34,818 bases of DNA from Microcaldota archaeon (GTDB taxonomy: Archaea > Micrarchaeota > Micrarchaeia > Micrarchaeales > Micrarchaeaceae), in NCBI GenBank assembly GCA_021791535.1, contig JAJYWI010000002.1:1-34818 (forward strand), written 5' to 3'. Shown one piece after another: positions 10,055-34,811 of the stretch; position 1 is the first letter of the stretch; each line of letters starts with the position of its first letter. The notes under the pieces are model-generated. The model worked only from the letters and a program-made list of their open reading frames with translations, searched no databases and was not told the origin of the DNA. The position numbers and the translations under genes were made by a program.

Positions 10055-10714
10055 TCACATGCTCTTCATTACACCGTTTCTGGGGCATAAATCATTCAAT
10101 GCGCATTTGCTGCACATCGGGACAGGCGCTTTGCACACCGCCCTGCCGTGGAACTTTATCACGTACGCGATCTTGCCCCAATCCTTCTTGTCTACAAGTT
10201 TCATAAGGTCCGCCTCTATCGCATCAGGCTTCTGGCTCGCGGTGAGGCCAAGCCTGTATGAAACGCGGACCACATGCGTGTCTGCCGGTATGCCCTCAGC
10301 AATGCCGAACGCATTTATCAGTATCGTGTTTGCTGACTTTCTTCCTATGCCTGGCAGCTCGACAAGCTTGTCGAGGTCGCTTGGGACCTTGCCGTTGTAC
10401 TTAATCTCCAGCTCCTTGCACGCGTTTATTATGCTCTTCACCTTGTTGGCGGCGAAGAGTATGCCGTGTATGTGCTTGAGGATGTCTTCCGGCTTAGCTG
10501 ATGCGTAGTCCTTCGCAGTTCTATAGTGCTTGAATATCTCCTTGGTGCACGCGTTTACAGTCTCGTCCTTCGACCTTGCAGCGAGGATTATCGCGACCAT
10601 CATTTCGAGAGGATTAGAGAAGTTGAGTATCTCCTTAGCATTAGGATATTCCTTCTTCAGGACGCCTATCGCTTTCTGGGCGCTCGCCATGTCAAGAAGC
10701 TTCGCCCCGGCCAT
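10055..10714 (-). CDS. nth: Endonuclease III
   Basis: Hh[14 protein letters not shown]...[14 protein letters not shown] and FeS loop C-x6-C-x2-C-x5-C ([17 protein letters not shown]). Confidence 0.93.
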
Positions 10715-10764: not shown

Positions 10765-11409
10765 ATGGGTGGAGCCGAAAAAAGCATTGCATTAGTGCTG
10801 CGCAGGCTGAAGAGGAGGTATCCTGACGAGATGCGCACTTCGCTCAGCCATTCTAACCCGTGGGAGCTACTGGTCGCGACGATTCTTTCTGCTCAAACGA
10901 CTGACGCGCAGGTAGACAGGGTAACACCGAGGCTGTTCAAGAGGTACCCGAATCCCAATAGCATTGCAAGACTGAGGCCCTCGCAGCTATACCCGTATAC
11001 AAGGAGCGTAAACATCTACAGGAACAAGTCAAGGAACATCATTAAGGCGGCCAGGATGATCCAGGAGGATTTTAGCGGCAAAGTCCCCGATACTCTGGAG
11101 AAGTTAACGATGCTTCCTGGCGTTGGCAGAAAGACGGCAAACGTGGTGATGGCGAATGCATTCGGCAAGAGCGAGGGCATAGCGATAGACACCCATTGCA
11201 TAACCGTGGCAAACAGGCTCTTCTTATATAGGACGAAAGACGCGAAGAGGATAGAGGAGCGCATGATGAGGGTGGTGCCGAAAGGCGACTGGGGCAACGT
11301 GACCCATCTTTTCATAGCGCTCGGCAGGGATGTGTGCACAGCAAGGAATAAGTATTGTGAAAGATGTATTTTGAATGATGTCTGCCCTTCAAGCGCGGTG
11401 AAGAAATGA
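10765..11409 (+). CDS. nth: Endonuclease III, second paralogue
   Basis: LPGVGRKTANVVMANAFG...IDTHCITVANRL and CTARNKYCERCILNDVC FeS loop. Confidence 0.93.
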   Translation: MGGAEKSIALVLRRLKRRYPDEMRTSLSHSNPWELLVATILSAQTTDAQVDRVTPRLFKRYPNPNSIARLRPSQLYPYTRSVNIYRNKSRNIIKAARMIQEDFSGKVPDTLEKLTMLPGVGRKTANVVMANAFGKSEGIAIDTHCITVANRLFLYRTKDAKRIEERMMRVVPKGDWGNVTHLFIALGRDVCTARNKYCERCILNDVCPSSAVKK

Positions 11410-18442: not shown

Positions 18443-18530
18443 CCCGTTGTAGCTCAATGGCAGAGCGGCCGCCTGTAGTATGTGAAATGAAGAAAGCGGC
18501 AGGTTGGGCGTTCGACTCGCTCCAACGGGA
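18443..18530 (+). tRNA. tRNA-Tyr (GTA) with 16-nt intron (18479..18494)
   Basis: CCCGTTG/CAACGGG acceptor (archaeal Tyr C1-G72), anticodon stem GCCGC/GCGGC; loop CTGTAG + tatgtgaaatgaagaa + A, insertion at canonical 37/38. Confidence 0.88.
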
Positions 18531-18542
18531 TTTGTGGTATTC

Positions 18543-18959
18543 ATGGAAGACTGCATCTTCTGCAAAGTTGCGAAGGGTGAGACGCCATCCTTCAAGATAT
18601 ACGAGGACAGCAGGTACGTCGCTATATTGGACTTATATCCAAGCATGATGGGGCAGACGCTAGTGATCCCGAAGATGCACGTTGACAGCTACATATTCAG
18701 GATGAGCGACAAGCAGATTGCGGACTTCATGTCCACAGTTAAGAGAGTTGCAAGGCTGCTGGAGAAGGGCCTTGGGGTGGAAAGGGTTGGCATGATATTC
18801 GAGGGGACAGAGATTAATCATCTTCATGCGAAGCTCTATCCCCTAGACGTCTCAAACTCCAGGATCGGCCCAGTATACATATCCCCGAAGCCGCAAGGAA
18901 GGGCGAGCGACGACTACCTTAAGGAGCTGGCGGAGAGGATAAAAAGAGCCAAAGGCTAA
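18543..18959 (+). CDS. HIT-family hydrolase
   Basis: MEDCIFCKVAKGETPSFKIYED..., GQTLVIPKMHVDSY, INHLHAKLYPLD (HxHxK variant). Confidence 0.88.
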   Translation: MEDCIFCKVAKGETPSFKIYEDSRYVAILDLYPSMMGQTLVIPKMHVDSYIFRMSDKQIADFMSTVKRVARLLEKGLGVERVGMIFEGTEINHLHAKLYPLDVSNSRIGPVYISPKPQGRASDDYLKELAERIKRAKG

Positions 18960-19002
18960 CACCACACCATTTCTAATTTGTTTGCCTCCTAAGCTACTAT
19001 GC

Positions 19003-19075
19003 GCCTTGGTAGTGTAGTGGTCTAGCATACGACCCTGTCACGGTTGTGACCCGGGTTCGAATCCCGGCCAAGGCG
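19003..19075 (+). tRNA. tRNA-Asp (GTC)
   Basis: GCCTTGG...CTGTCAC loop...CCGGGTTCGAATCCCGG CCAAGGC G. Confidence 0.93.
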
Positions 19076-19076
19076 T
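19050..19076 (+). repeat. Direct repeat copy 1 (att-like), 3' part of tRNA-Asp
   Basis: cccgggttcgaatcccggccaaggcgt, 27/27 identical to 19767-19793. Confidence 0.95.
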
Positions 19077-19149
19077 ATTCTGCTCACGCCATAGTCACGT
19101 ATAGAAAAGCATATATATCAATATAAACATAATATTAATAGTGATATAA

Positions 19150-19383
19150 ATGGCAAAGCTAATAGCTGTTAATGAAGAGGTCTATACAAAATTAAAGAGG
19201 CTCAAGGGAAGCCGTTCGTTTTCCACACTGCTAGATGGGCTTATAGAAAAGAAATCTGGTGACATAAAGAGGTATTTTGGGGTATGGAGAGATAGAGACG
19301 ACCTTGACAAATTGGAAGCAGAGATTACAGCAAATAGAAAAACAGCCGGATTAAAGAGGAGAAAGTACCTGGCTGGTGTTTAA
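19150..19383 (+). CDS. vapB: VapB-type antitoxin (COG1753/DUF217-like)
   Basis: MAKLIAVNEEVYTKLKRLKGSRSFSTLLDGLIEKKSGDIKRYFGVW; abuts PIN-domain toxin. Confidence 0.85.
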   Translation: MAKLIAVNEEVYTKLKRLKGSRSFSTLLDGLIEKKSGDIKRYFGVWRDRDDLDKLEAEITANRKTAGLKRRKYLAGV

Positions 19384-19755
19384 TTGGCGATCATTGACAC
19401 AAACGTAGTTATAGAGTATCTTAGGGGGAATGCCAAGATAGCAAAAATTGTCGACTCGAATTTTGAGAGCGGTGGAATCAGCATAACGACCATTACAAGG
19501 TACGAACTTCTGCAGAGAGCAAATAAGGACCAGTCTGTCCTCTCTTTCATCTCTGAAATAAATGTGTATGGTTTTGACAAACGGGCATCGGATAAAGCGG
19601 CAGAAGTATGGCATAGATTGAAAGCAAAAGGTAAAGTGGTTGATGACGTTGATCTCTTTATAGCGAGCATAGCGCTAAGCAATGGCGAGAAACTGATAAC
19701 GCTTGACAACGGCTTCAGGCACATAGAAGGAGACATTGAGATTGTTAAGGGATGA
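19384..19755 (+). CDS. vapC: VapC-type PIN-domain toxin
   Basis: IIDTNVVIEYLRG ... TRYELLQRA ... VDDVDLFIASIALSNGEKLITLDNGFRHI; TTG start adjoining vapB stop. Confidence 0.9.
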   Translation: MAIIDTNVVIEYLRGNAKIAKIVDSNFESGGISITTITRYELLQRANKDQSVLSFISEINVYGFDKRASDKAAEVWHRLKAKGKVVDDVDLFIASIALSNGEKLITLDNGFRHIEGDIEIVKG

Positions 19756-19766
19756 TCTAACTGCTT

Positions 19767-19793
19767 CCCGGGTTCGAATCCCGGCCAAGGCGT
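19767..19793 (+). repeat. Direct repeat copy 2 (att-like), displaced 3' end of tRNA-Asp
   Basis: cccgggttcgaatcccggccaaggcgt, perfect copy of 19050-19076. Confidence 0.95.
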
Positions 19794-19794
19794 T

Positions 19795-21048
19795 TTAATC
19801 TATGTTTATCGTGTCCCCCACTTTCGGAGCAACCGCAGTGAAGCCCTCATCGCTCAGGTCGTTCGCCAGCGCTTTTGCATTATCCTCGCTTCCATGCACG
19901 CACACTACGGTGTTCGGCGAGCTCTCCTTGGCGTACCTGTGCAGGTCTGCCCTGTCTGCATGCGCGGAAAGGTCGTGAAAGCTCACTGGCGTCGTTATCT
20001 TTGTCTTCTCCCCGTCAAGCATTATGTAGCCGTGGTCGATCAGCATCTTTCCGTTCGTACCCTCGACCTGGTACCCTGTCAGGAATATGTGAGAGTTGTT
20101 GTTGAGCCTGGTTATGTAGTCGAGCACAGGCCCTCCGTTGAGCATGCCTGCGGTAGTGACTATTATTGACGGCCCGTTCAGCGCCTCCTTCCTTGCGCCC
20201 CTCTCCTCTATCCAAGTGGTCTCGCTTATCGCGTTCTCCAGTACCTCCCTGTTCTTTATGAACCTAGGATGGTTCATCACTATCGAGGTCGCTTTCCTCG
20301 CCATGCCGTCTATGTATGTGGATGGCGTAAGGCCATTCTCATACAGTATCGCAAGTATCTCTTGGCTCCTGCCTACGGCAAAAACTGGCACCAGCGCGTT
20401 TCCTCCATTGTCCAGTGTCTCCTTTATCTTATCTATCATCTCCTTTATAACCTTGTTTCTGTCGGGGTGGTCCTTGGTCGCATACGTCGATTCCATTATC
20501 AGCACGTCGCTCTTCACGACCTCTGCGCCTTTGTGCAGCGTCTGCTCGCGCATTTTGAAATCACCGGTGTAGACGACCCTCTTGTTCCCTTTTGAGTGGG
20601 GCTTTTCAACCAGAGTTATGGAGCTGCCGCTTATGTGGCCTGCATCGTACAGCGATATGTCAAAGCCGCCGAGCCTAGCTTGGGTATGGTAATCGAGGCT
20701 TACGTACTTGCTGATCATGCTGCGTATCTGCCTCTTGTGGAAGAAGGTCTTGCTGTGCTGCTTCTTGGCTATGTTGAGCGCATCATCGAGCAGCAATGCG
20801 GACAGGTCCATCGTAGGCATGGTGCCGAAGGCCGGTATGCTCATGTCGTTGTATATTGCCGCGGTGAAACCGCTGTGGTCGAGGTGGGCGTGGCTTATCA
20901 CGAGCGCGTCCATCTTCGGCAGCGCTATAGGATATTCGGTGTGGTGGTCTATCTTTACCCCGAAATCCAGCATTATGCTGCGCTCGTCCTTCAACATTAT
21001 CGCGGACCTTCCTACCTCTTGAGCTCCGCCGAGTAGCCTTAGTTGCAT
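19795..21048 (-). CDS. Beta-CASP metallo-beta-lactamase ribonuclease, second paralogue
   Basis: MQLRLLGGAQEVGRSAIML, SHAHLDHSGF, AGHISGSS, YTGDFK, TTAGMLNGGPVL, FHDLSAHADR; start set at ATG 21048 rather than the longer ORF. Confidence 0.9.
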   Translation of the reverse strand: MQLRLLGGAQEVGRSAIMLKDERSIMLDFGVKIDHHTEYPIALPKMDALVISHAHLDHSGFTAAIYNDMSIPAFGTMPTMDLSALLLDDALNIAKKQHSKTFFHKRQIRSMISKYVSLDYHTQARLGGFDISLYDAGHISGSSITLVEKPHSKGNKRVVYTGDFKMREQTLHKGAEVVKSDVLIMESTYATKDHPDRNKVIKEMIDKIKETLDNGGNALVPVFAVGRSQEILAILYENGLTPSTYIDGMARKATSIVMNHPRFIKNREVLENAISETTWIEERGARKEALNGPSIIVTTAGMLNGGPVLDYITRLNNNSHIFLTGYQVEGTNGKMLIDHGYIMLDGEKTKITTPVSFHDLSAHADRADLHRYAKESSPNTVVCVHGSEDNAKALANDLSDEGFTAVAPKVGDTINID

Positions 21049-21145
21049 CGCATTCCTCAGAACAAGAAGTGCGCGTTCTCTATTCAGAATGCCCGGTGAA
21101 CTTATATAAAGATTCGCATCCATATAGAGCAATTGGATTGTTTGC

Positions 21146-21916
21146 ATGGCCGATGAACCAAATTTTCTGGATCTTGTATCGCTCAGCAAGATTACTCCTG
21201 ACCTGGTCGTTGAGAAGTTCGGTGGCAGGATAAACTCGTCATTCTTTGATGGATCGAACATACTCGGCACTTTGAGGCTGAAAGGCCTCATAGATTTCAC
21301 TGCGAATTTCCCAGGGCAGAGCGTGATAACGATAACTGACCAGGGAAAGCAGCTGCTTAAGGAGGCGAATGAGAAAGCGGCGTTGCCATTCGACAGCGTA
21401 GACCTTGCGATATTGCAGCAGCTTCAGGCTGGCAAGCGGTCGTATCTCGACATAGGCAATGCCGTCAACCTGAGGCCCAAGGACCTTGCGATGCACCTCT
21501 ACAAGATGGGTATCCAGCAGTTCGCGGCATACGACATAAAGAACGGCGTTCTTGATGTGATGCTCACAGAGAAGGGGATGATCCAGGCAAAGGCTGGCGT
21601 GCCGCAACCTGGACAGCAAAAGCCAGCGGAAGCGCAGCAGCCTGCAACGCAGCAACAGGCGCAGCAACCTACTGGCCAGCCTCAGCAGCCACAGCCTCAG
21701 GCGCAGCAACCTACTGGCCAGCCTCAGCAGCCACAGCCTCAGGCGCAGCAGGCGCCAACTGCGGAGCAGATTGCAGGCAGCATGTCGATGGAGGACATAG
21801 AAAAGCAGATAAAGTCCTCCAAACGCGCTAGGAACATGAAGATTGCGATAGTGGTCATAGTCCTGATAGTGGCCATATTCGTTGTGCTTTACCTGAAAGG
21901 ATCAATACACGTCTAG
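21146..21916 (+). CDS. Winged-helix-like protein with PQ-rich linker and C-terminal TM anchor
   Basis: N-terminal helical domain, AQQPTGQPQQPQPQ repeats, C-terminal MKIAIVVIVLIVAIFVVLYL. Confidence 0.65.
   Translation: MADEPNFLDLVSLSKITPDLVVEKFGGRINSSFFDGSNILGTLRLKGLIDFTANFPGQSVITITDQGKQLLKEANEKAALPFDSVDLAILQQLQAGKRSYLDIGNAVNLRPKDLAMHLYKMGIQQFAAYDIKNGVLDVMLTEKGMIQAKAGVPQPGQQKPAEAQQPATQQQAQQPTGQPQQPQPQAQQPTGQPQQPQPQAQQAPTAEQIAGSMSMEDIEKQIKSSKRARNMKIAIVVIVLIVAIFVVLYLKGSIHV
21659..21742 (+). repeat. Two perfect 42-bp tandem repeats
   Basis: gcgcagcaacctactggccagcctcagcagccacagcctcag x2 (21659-21700, 21701-21742), followed by partial gcgcagca. Confidence 0.95.
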
Positions 21917-33758: not shown

Positions 33759-34811
33759 TCATGATGCCACCCGTATAGTTCCTGCTTCGTCGGCAACCGC
33801 CTCCCTTACGAAAGGTCTTACATCGTCTCCACAGGCTTGACTTCCCGAATGTCCTTCGGTAGCTCTATTGAGTATATTTATCGATGCGTTAATGTCCCTA
33901 TCTTTTGACATACCGCACTTCTCGCATAGGAATGCCCTCTGCGATATGGATATTTTCTGCACGTTCTTGCACTCACTGCACGTCATTGACGTATATTGGG
34001 GTTCCACTCCAACTGCCACGCAACCAGCGCTTTCAGCCTTGTATTGCAGAAGTTGTGTGAAGTTTCCCCATGAGGCTTCATTTATGGACTTTGCAAATCT
34101 ATGGTTCTTTACCATATTCGATATTTCCAGATCTTCGTATGCAATGAATGAGTATGAATTTATCAATTCGTGCGAAAGTTTGTGGAGCCTGTCCTGCCTT
34201 ATTCTTGCGATATATTCTGAATATTTGGCAAACTTTATTACCGCCGTCCTTCTGTTGTGCGAGCCTTTCTTCTTTCTTGAAACGCCCTTTTGCAGAATCT
34301 TTGCGTGTTTTCTCTGGTGCTTTGTTATTCTTGTATTCTGATGAATGGTATTATCTGAGAGCGCAGCATACTGCATTACCCCCAAATCCATTCCTACTTT
34401 TGGTTTATTGTTTGATACGAATGGTTTATCTTCCCGTTCGACTGCAATGGTGATATACCATTCCAGCGACTTTGTTTTCTTTATGGTAAGCGTCTTGATT
34501 GTTCCTTCTATTTCCCTGTGGTTCACGAAGTTTATCCTGCCTATCTTTGAGAGTTCAGCCTTTTTCTTTTCCATCTTGAAGCCATTGGTCTGGGGATATG
34601 TCAGCGAAGATACGAACTTCTTGTATCTTGGGAAGCCGACTTTTACGTTCTTTCCCTGCTTCTTTTCTTTGCACCTTCTGAAGAAGTGCATGTAAGCGTC
34701 TGATACTCTTTTTGAAACATTCTGGAGAACCTGCGAGTGCAGTTCTGCAAATTCTGGCCTTTCCTTCTTTATCTGCGTTATCCAGACATTCATTCTGTAT
34801 TCCGTAAGCAT
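33759..34811 (-). CDS. tnpB: TnpB (IS200/IS605-type RuvC nuclease, OrfB); true N-terminus probably beyond the window edge
   Basis: VGMDLGVMQYAAL (RuvC-I), IAYEDLEISNM (RuvC-II), CSECKNVQ...CEKCGMSKDRDINASINIL (zinc finger + RuvC-III). Confidence 0.93.
   Translation of the reverse strand: MLTEYRMNVWITQIKKERPEFAELHSQVLQNVSKRVSDAYMHFFRRCKEKKQGKNVKVGFPRYKKFVSSLTYPQTNGFKMEKKKAELSKIGRINFVNHREIEGTIKTLTIKKTKSLEWYITIAVEREDKPFVSNNKPKVGMDLGVMQYAALSDNTIHQNTRITKHQRKHAKILQKGVSRKKKGSHNRRTAVIKFAKYSEYIARIRQDRLHKLSHELINSYSFIAYEDLEISNMVKNHRFAKSINEASWGNFTQLLQYKAESAGCVAVGVEPQYTSMTCSECKNVQKISISQRAFLCEKCGMSKDRDINASINILNRATEGHSGSQACGDDVRPFVREAVADEAGTIRVAS

Follow-up and report, generated by a model that had tools for sequence, protein, structure and literature searches.

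An integrase-less vapBC cassette at the tRNA-Asp gene of a Micrarchaeota archaeon and related cassettes at tRNA genes of its order

Introduction

tRNA-targeted cassettes and additive flexible genomic islands are known from streamlined bacteria, namely Ca. Actinomarinales (PMC7771536) and, as fGI-2, Ca. Methylopumilus (PMC10872708). In Methylophilaceae, the additive islands span 330 bp to 42 kb and their repeats are the last 20 nt of tRNA-Lys (PMC10872708). Among archaea, the iMGEs of Thaumarchaeota integrate at tRNA 3' ends (PMC6563490), insertions at tRNA genes are described in Sulfolobus (PMC3718332), and toxin-antitoxin (TA) cassettes are numerous in archaeal integrons, which have IntI and attC (PMC9668308).

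Here we analyze a vapBC islet at the tRNA-Asp gene of a Micrarchaeota archaeon, located in a stretch of 34,818 nucleotides (contig JAJYWI010000002.1, assembly GCA_021791535.1), hereafter the window. With the additive islands the islet shares a small cassette at a tRNA gene that is closed by a tRNA fragment; those islands, however, are bacterial and carry mainly envelope, transport or unknown cargo (PMC7771536, PMC10872708), whereas here we deal with an archaeon, TA cargo, an empty site and, in many related cassettes, a structured right end. The archaeal tRNA elements likewise have a tRNA-derived direct repeat and count vapBC among their acquired cargo, yet they hold an integrase or its remnants together with plasmid or virus genes (PMC6563490, PMC3718332), while the islet is 690 bp long and contains vapBC only. 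Integrons and CALINs resemble it in their cassettes of one to few genes at a fixed dock, their frequent TA cargo and a recombinase encoded outside the cassette (PMC9668308, PMC11389934). The boundary here is nevertheless a tRNA 3' end and seemingly not attC, no integron integrase was identified, and the vapBC cassette apparently has a promoter of its own. Tycheposons and hitchers are also tRNA-linked and cargo-carrying, and some hitchers depend on a helper (PMC10872708, PMC11389934), but tycheposons measure 4–200 kb and possess a tyrosine recombinase; the islet is far smaller and has none. Finally, the encoded proteins are by sequence an ordinary type II VapBC pair (PF02697 and PF01850) with the same antitoxin-toxin order and the conserved acidic residues of the PIN domain. 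It is their setting that is unusual.

Results

The tRNA-Asp locus

The islet lies between two copies of the 27-mer CCCGGGTTCGAATCCCGGCCAAGGCGT, one forming the 3' end of an intact tRNA-Asp and the other starting 11 bp past the vapC stop and adjoining the stop codon of a beta-CASP ribonuclease gene (Table 1). Both copies are perfect, the window holds no further one at up to 3 mismatches, and a repeat search returns the same pair with a spacing of 717. Shuffles give an expectation of 0 for such a repeat, which rules out a chance repeat. A preliminary description of this DNA, made from the letters alone, had claimed the exact duplication with only vapBC inside, an AT-richer stretch between the copies and an islet devoid of integrase, and all three hold. 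Both genes score above their Pfam cut-offs, the GC content between the copies is 0.399 compared with 0.516 for the genome (vapBC 0.416 compared with 0.538 for the local flanks), vapB and vapC are the only genes between the repeats, and the integrase matches of the host are found elsewhere. The description had further spoken of a 717-bp islet; this figure is correct as the repeat spacing, whereas the inserted DNA amounts to 690 bp (19077-19766).

Table 1. Features of the tRNA-Asp locus in the window and of two further cassette loci in the host genome (G000).
Feature	Position	Strand	Evidence
HIT-family gene, left flank, also at the empty site	18543..18959	+	PF01230; synteny in G007, G001, G003, G006, G008
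tRNA-Asp(GTC), intact; its 3' 27 bp are the proximal attachment copy	19002..19076	+	ARAGORN; Rfam RF00005, 63 bits
Proximal 27-bp repeat: T arm, 3' acceptor strand, discriminator	19050..19076	+	exact match, 0 expected
Cassette leader: TATA-like stretch and ATATCA..TGATAT dyad	19077..19149	+	aligns from the tRNA end with G008, G046
vapB antitoxin gene, 77 aa	19150..19383	+	PF02697, 54.7 bits, cut-off 27.9
vapC toxin gene (PIN ribonuclease), 123 aa, TTG start	19384..19755	+	PF01850, 51.8 bits, cut-off 23.6
Distal 27-bp repeat, ancestral tRNA-Asp 3' end	19767..19793	+	exact match; junction common to G007, G008
beta-CASP ribonuclease gene, right flank, also at the empty site	19795..21300	-	PF10996, PF07521, PF16661
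Tandem tRNA-Asn cassettes: Zn-ribbon/PIN_2 unit, then DUF5680 cassette with R element	G000:C14:93270-95640		
tRNA-Lys, then 1.5-kb cassette: two ORFs, R element, partial tRNA-Lys	G000:C14:100034-101598		

In an alignment of VapC, residues D5, E41, D88 and D108 are invariant among four relatives. Neither VapB nor VapC has a PADLOC match as defence-system cargo. The limits given for the beta-CASP gene are those of its ORF, the conserved core of which begins at about residue 83; a beta-CASP homologue is encoded in 100 of 100 relatives.

Two observations concern the surroundings of the locus. The tRNA at 18443-18530 is called tRNA-Leu(TAG) without introns; once introns are permitted, the call becomes tRNA-Tyr(GTA), with an intron of 16 nt, and the tRNA at the corresponding place in the relative G210 (relatives are denoted by G and a number) is also called Tyr with an intron. 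By eye, two divergent adjacent ORFs, 10055-10714 (-) and 10765-11409 (+), are both endonuclease III (nth)-like.

Empty site and lateral transfer

The preliminary description had interpreted the second copy as a displaced tRNA end, left behind by integration at the tRNA 3' end, and had proposed to look for a relative in which tRNA-Asp is joined directly to the beta-CASP gene. We found this empty site in the congener G007 (93% completeness), where HIT, tRNA-Asp and beta-CASP follow each other, the beta-CASP 3' end being only a few bases away from the tRNA, and the junction reads ...CCAAGGCGTCCTCAATCTATGTTTAT. Past the distal copy, the DNA reads ...CCAAGGCGTTTTAATCTATGTTTAT in the window and ...CCAAGGCGTCTTCAATCTATGTTTAT in the congener G008, which is the same junction. 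Since both distal junctions match that of G007, the distal copy is the old tRNA end and the proximal copy arrived with the insert. Both the displaced end and the integration footprint postulated earlier are thereby supported. The distal copy lacks the tRNA 5' half. We also considered that it could be the functional 3' half of a split tRNA, which we set aside because an intact tRNA-Asp is present and the copy fits the empty-site junction.

An arrangement fixed in all relatives and following a vertical phylogeny had been named beforehand as the outcome that would speak against insertion. Among the eight congeners, the site is unoccupied in G007 and holds vapBC in two more, whereas the remaining five show different genes there or nothing that could be recognised; G001-G005 have other genes in the gap between tRNA-Asp and beta-CASP and no recognisable distal repeat. 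The vapBC unit is not vertically fixed, and its pattern is that of horizontal acquisition. Compared with G008, VapB is 97% and VapC 89% identical, while identity is 41% for the HIT protein, 56% for an AAA-ATPase and 67-69% for beta-CASP. Compared with G046, which belongs to another genus, VapB and VapC are both 88% identical and the AAA-ATPase 48.5%. Hence, with an identity far above that of the flanking proteins (41-69%), the pair has moved laterally. In G008 and G046, vapBC is also located at tRNA-Asp, and G006 holds a diverged version (VapC 63% identity).

Among 84,980 GTDB genomes, this VapC lineage (at least 62% identity) occurs in only three other archaeal genomes, each time at tRNA-Asp: WH2.bin153, FK_Sedi_B_Bin.309 and JOPF112 (records JAKABJ010000022.1, JAMCZL010000003.1 and JASHRX010000048.1), bins that are labelled Micrarchaeota or Marsarchaeota. 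A search of IMG/VR gave no viral carrier of the lineage.

tRNA-Asp as a hotspot in relatives

A second copy of the locus's own tRNA-Asp 3' end within 6 kb was present at 14 of 50 tRNA-Asp loci (the window and 49 relatives), a rate that is biased because many loci were fetched since a second copy had already been seen, so that the informative part is the one-sidedness: all 14 second ends share the strand of the tRNA and lie downstream of it; 89 kb of upstream DNA and the opposite strand contain none. Second tRNA pieces in three genomes were left out of this count, those of G016 and G039 being parts of an intact tRNA-Arg and that of G011 resembling another tRNA. The one-sided direction also bears on the idea that the repeat at our locus is an assembly artefact or a random repeat. 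The genomes are metagenome assemblies, assemblies break at repeats, and several of the related arrays do so (G008, G046, G210). We nonetheless hold this idea to be barely credible, as the 27-mer is perfect with 0 expected, G008 was assembled independently and has the same distal beta-CASP junction, and the direction is the same in 14 of 14 loci.

The cargo at tRNA-Asp differs among relatives, i.e. insertion at one tRNA has been repeated, as in additive islands. In G094, G095 and G097, a Fic protein is encoded by cassettes that have tRNA-Asp on one side and a second, almost complete tRNA-Asp on the other; these genomes represent two genera, the cassette DNA is 79-83% identical, and G095 has other neighbours. 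Further cargo comprises DUF2683 and a ParE/YafQ-type pair (G072), an alpha/beta hydrolase (G091), a P-loop/kinase-like protein (G008) and, by eye, VOC-like and EamA-like genes (G046). In G210, the tRNA-Asp cassettes encode an SDR-like protein, a 211-aa ORF and a ParE/YafQ-like pair and are accompanied by two tRNA ends and R elements (see below); if two contigs join at a shared R element, at least three cassettes stand in a row there. Another cassette array is found at tRNA-Val in G048. Arrays at one dock thus occur in these relatives and at the tRNA-Asn of the host, and the window locus holds one cassette.

By inspection of the cargo, toxin-type genes turn up repeatedly among the tRNA-Asp cassettes. 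In several TA cassettes the toxin gene ends 11-36 bp ahead of the tRNA piece, and such proximity would suit a vertically inherited, selected arrangement in which the distal piece acts as a processing signal or terminator of the vapBC transcript. We regard this as very improbable, since the lateral pattern contradicts it: the unit is patchy in the genus, there is an empty site, and vapBC identity lies far above that of the flanks.

Further cassettes in the host genome

Searching 702 of the 741 kb of the host genome (assembly about 93% complete, 40 tRNA genes called in the searched part) for orphan tRNA 3' ends revealed three, located downstream of the tRNA-Asp, tRNA-Asn and tRNA-Lys genes to which they correspond. 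The islet is one among many such cassettes in the host genome and its order, a fact overlooked by the preliminary description, although the search that it had suggested for other units flanked by tRNA ends was successful, with vapBC at tRNA-Asp in G008 and G046 and a unit with a PIN_2 toxin at the host tRNA-Asn.

This tRNA-Asn unit of 1471 bp contains a Zn-ribbon-like gene, an antitoxin-like ORF and the PIN_2 toxin and is closed by a tRNA-Asn end; like vapC in the window, the toxin gene stops shortly ahead of the tRNA piece. The DUF5680 cassette that follows it is 90% identical over 664 bp to a tRNA-Asn cassette in G050, a genome of another genus. This case of recent transfer at a matching tRNA is independent of the vapBC one. 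In G050 the cassette sits directly after tRNA-Asn and in the host beyond the PIN_2 unit; judging from the order in the host, newer cassettes seem to be inserted immediately beside the tRNA. The larger ORF of the tRNA-Lys cassette has no Pfam match.

Two of the host cassettes have a common left end, termed L element. It was considered as a general left-end element of the cassettes and rejected, as a search returned only these two and, in part, G050; given this confinement, we read it as cargo-specific leader DNA.

A structured right-end element

Many related cassettes end in an R element, which consists of a hairpin, often a second hairpin, and then a TATA-like box, 90-190 bp ahead of the distal tRNA end. 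We based a covariance model on eight copies; it matches in 14 of 100 relatives and, across the phylum, in 19 of 295 genomes, which all belong to one order. What follows R in most places is a tRNA 3' half (Lys, Asp, Glu, Asn and others). In an alignment of 26 copies (including L206:5846-5929), 92% of cells pair and both partners vary in 8 of 10 pairs, a level of pairing reached neither by shuffles nor by slid controls, with the qualification that the alignment was fitted to the model and favours structure somewhat. No Rfam family matches the region at or above its gathering score.

As a component of the window cassette or of integrase elements, R was tested and rejected: neither the window (E <= 5) nor any other TA cassette or integrase element tested contains it. 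The islet as it stands is therefore not in the R group. A TnpB-like (IS605-type) ORF of 350 aa, noticed by eye at 33759-34811 and extending to the right end of the window, prompted us to consider IS605-like hairpin ends; the variable loop of the R hairpin argues against a fixed cleavage motif.

In G008 and G046, at least one further gene and R lie between vapBC and the distal tRNA end. Past vapC, the window and G008 align over about 15 bases, after which the window sequence passes abruptly into the tRNA end. As these nearly identical vapBC pairs keep R further downstream, the window form seems to have lost its right part, and longer vapBC cassettes as in G008 and G046 were probably shortened to give the 690-bp form. 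In this compact form without the conserved right-end element, the islet may no longer be mobile.

Recombinases

Related tyrosine recombinases of about 400 aa are encoded directly after tRNA genes in the order (Asp, Asn, His, Glu, Thr, perhaps others), and PF00589 proteins directly follow tRNA-Asp in G018, G053, G070, G076 and G086. Two insertions stand in tandem at the tRNA-Asp of G018 (G018:C5:45000-64500). The first is a 0.84-kb cassette that closes with a tRNA end; after it comes an element of about 15 kb, which begins with an integrase, continues with virus- or plasmid-like genes and likewise closes with a tRNA end. This integrase element is a candidate helper for tRNA-Asp cassettes.

For the host, the preliminary description had suggested looking for a tyrosine recombinase at another tRNA, and the PF00589 search gave one complete integrase at tRNA-His, besides one fragment cut by a contig end (contig C10). 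The same search of the assembly (about 93% complete) returned neither a tRNA-Asp-specific integrase nor the integron integrase IntI. As the only complete host integrase is found at tRNA-His and relatives carry tRNA-Asp recombinases, a tRNA-Asp recombinase may plausibly have acted in trans.

Discussion

We consider it likely that the islet is a non-autonomous, horizontally acquired cassette that was inserted into the tRNA-Asp 3' end by site-specific recombination. This reading draws on the exact repeat, the empty site, lateral transfer at tRNA-Asp, the lack of an integrase in the islet, the hotspot, the tandem arrays and the tRNA-Asp recombinases of the order. Incoming DNA would have brought vapBC together with a copy of the tRNA-Asp 3' end. 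Recombination in the T-arm/acceptor region would then have let the incoming copy restore the tRNA, while the original end was pushed 717 bp downstream to the beta-CASP gene. The recombinase may have come from a transient virus or plasmid and acted in trans, and VapBC, by making loss costly (addiction), could have caused the cassette to persist.

The islet could also be the remnant of a larger autonomous virus or plasmid which had its own integrase and resided at tRNA-Asp, all of it having been deleted except vapBC and the attachment copies. Integrase elements do occupy tRNA-Asp in relatives, and the additional genes and R ahead of the distal end in G008 and G046, together with the window's match to G008 that breaks off shortly past vapC, would be in line with such a deletion. 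We still judge this origin unlikely: none of the vapBC cassettes in the four genomes that carry them contains an integrase, and small integrase-less cassettes with unrelated cargo recur at tRNA-Asp and at other tRNAs, which would need repeated deletions with intact ends. Altogether, there is evidence for both origins, between which the preliminary description had left the choice, as the recurrence of one-operon cassettes favours mobilisation in trans, and the longer cassettes of G008 and G046 suggest shortening.

Another explanation overlaps with that of a cassette mobilised in trans and differs from it by claiming dedicated machinery. Here, a tRNA-anchored, integron-like system would exist in which a structured right end and a tRNA 3' half are recognised by an undiscovered recombinase that inserts cassettes beside the tRNA. 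The arrays at tRNA-Asp in G210, at tRNA-Asn in the host (two cassettes) and at tRNA-Val in G048 are compatible with this, as is a covarying hairpin that is confined to one order and stands before the 3' halves of different tRNAs. No common recombinase emerges, however, since the R-positive genomes G004, G006, G050, G056 and G099 have no PF00589 match; R is missing from the window cassette and from other TA cassettes, and general tRNA integrases acting in trans would equally account for the arrays. We thus view a dedicated system as a minority possibility, although one worth some weight.

The same pair at the same tRNA in relatives, and similar cassettes at other tRNAs, make tRNA genes appear as gene-collecting docks in this group. 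More broadly, and only tentatively, we propose that this order of small-genome archaea uses tRNA docks for an integron-like traffic of integrase-less cassettes, many with R and a tRNA 3' half, which stand in tandem at the matching tRNA and pass between genera, with TA cassettes such as the islet as stabilisers. In the open-licence literature we found no paper on such cassettes in Micrarchaeota; hence the archaeal, TA-carrying and array-forming version looks new, while the kind itself has been published in bacteria.

In summary, our study indicates that a genome of about 0.74 Mb need not carry mobility genes to acquire new operons singly, the tRNA being rebuilt at each insertion and the recombinase presumably borrowed. 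Gene flow in uncultured archaea becomes traceable in metagenomes by means of a defined dock (tRNA-Asp), its unoccupied form in a relative and cassettes that are almost identical between genera. The R element is a conserved end element and a candidate recombination signal. The finding also offers a possible reason why type II TA pairs may accumulate beside archaeal tRNA genes.
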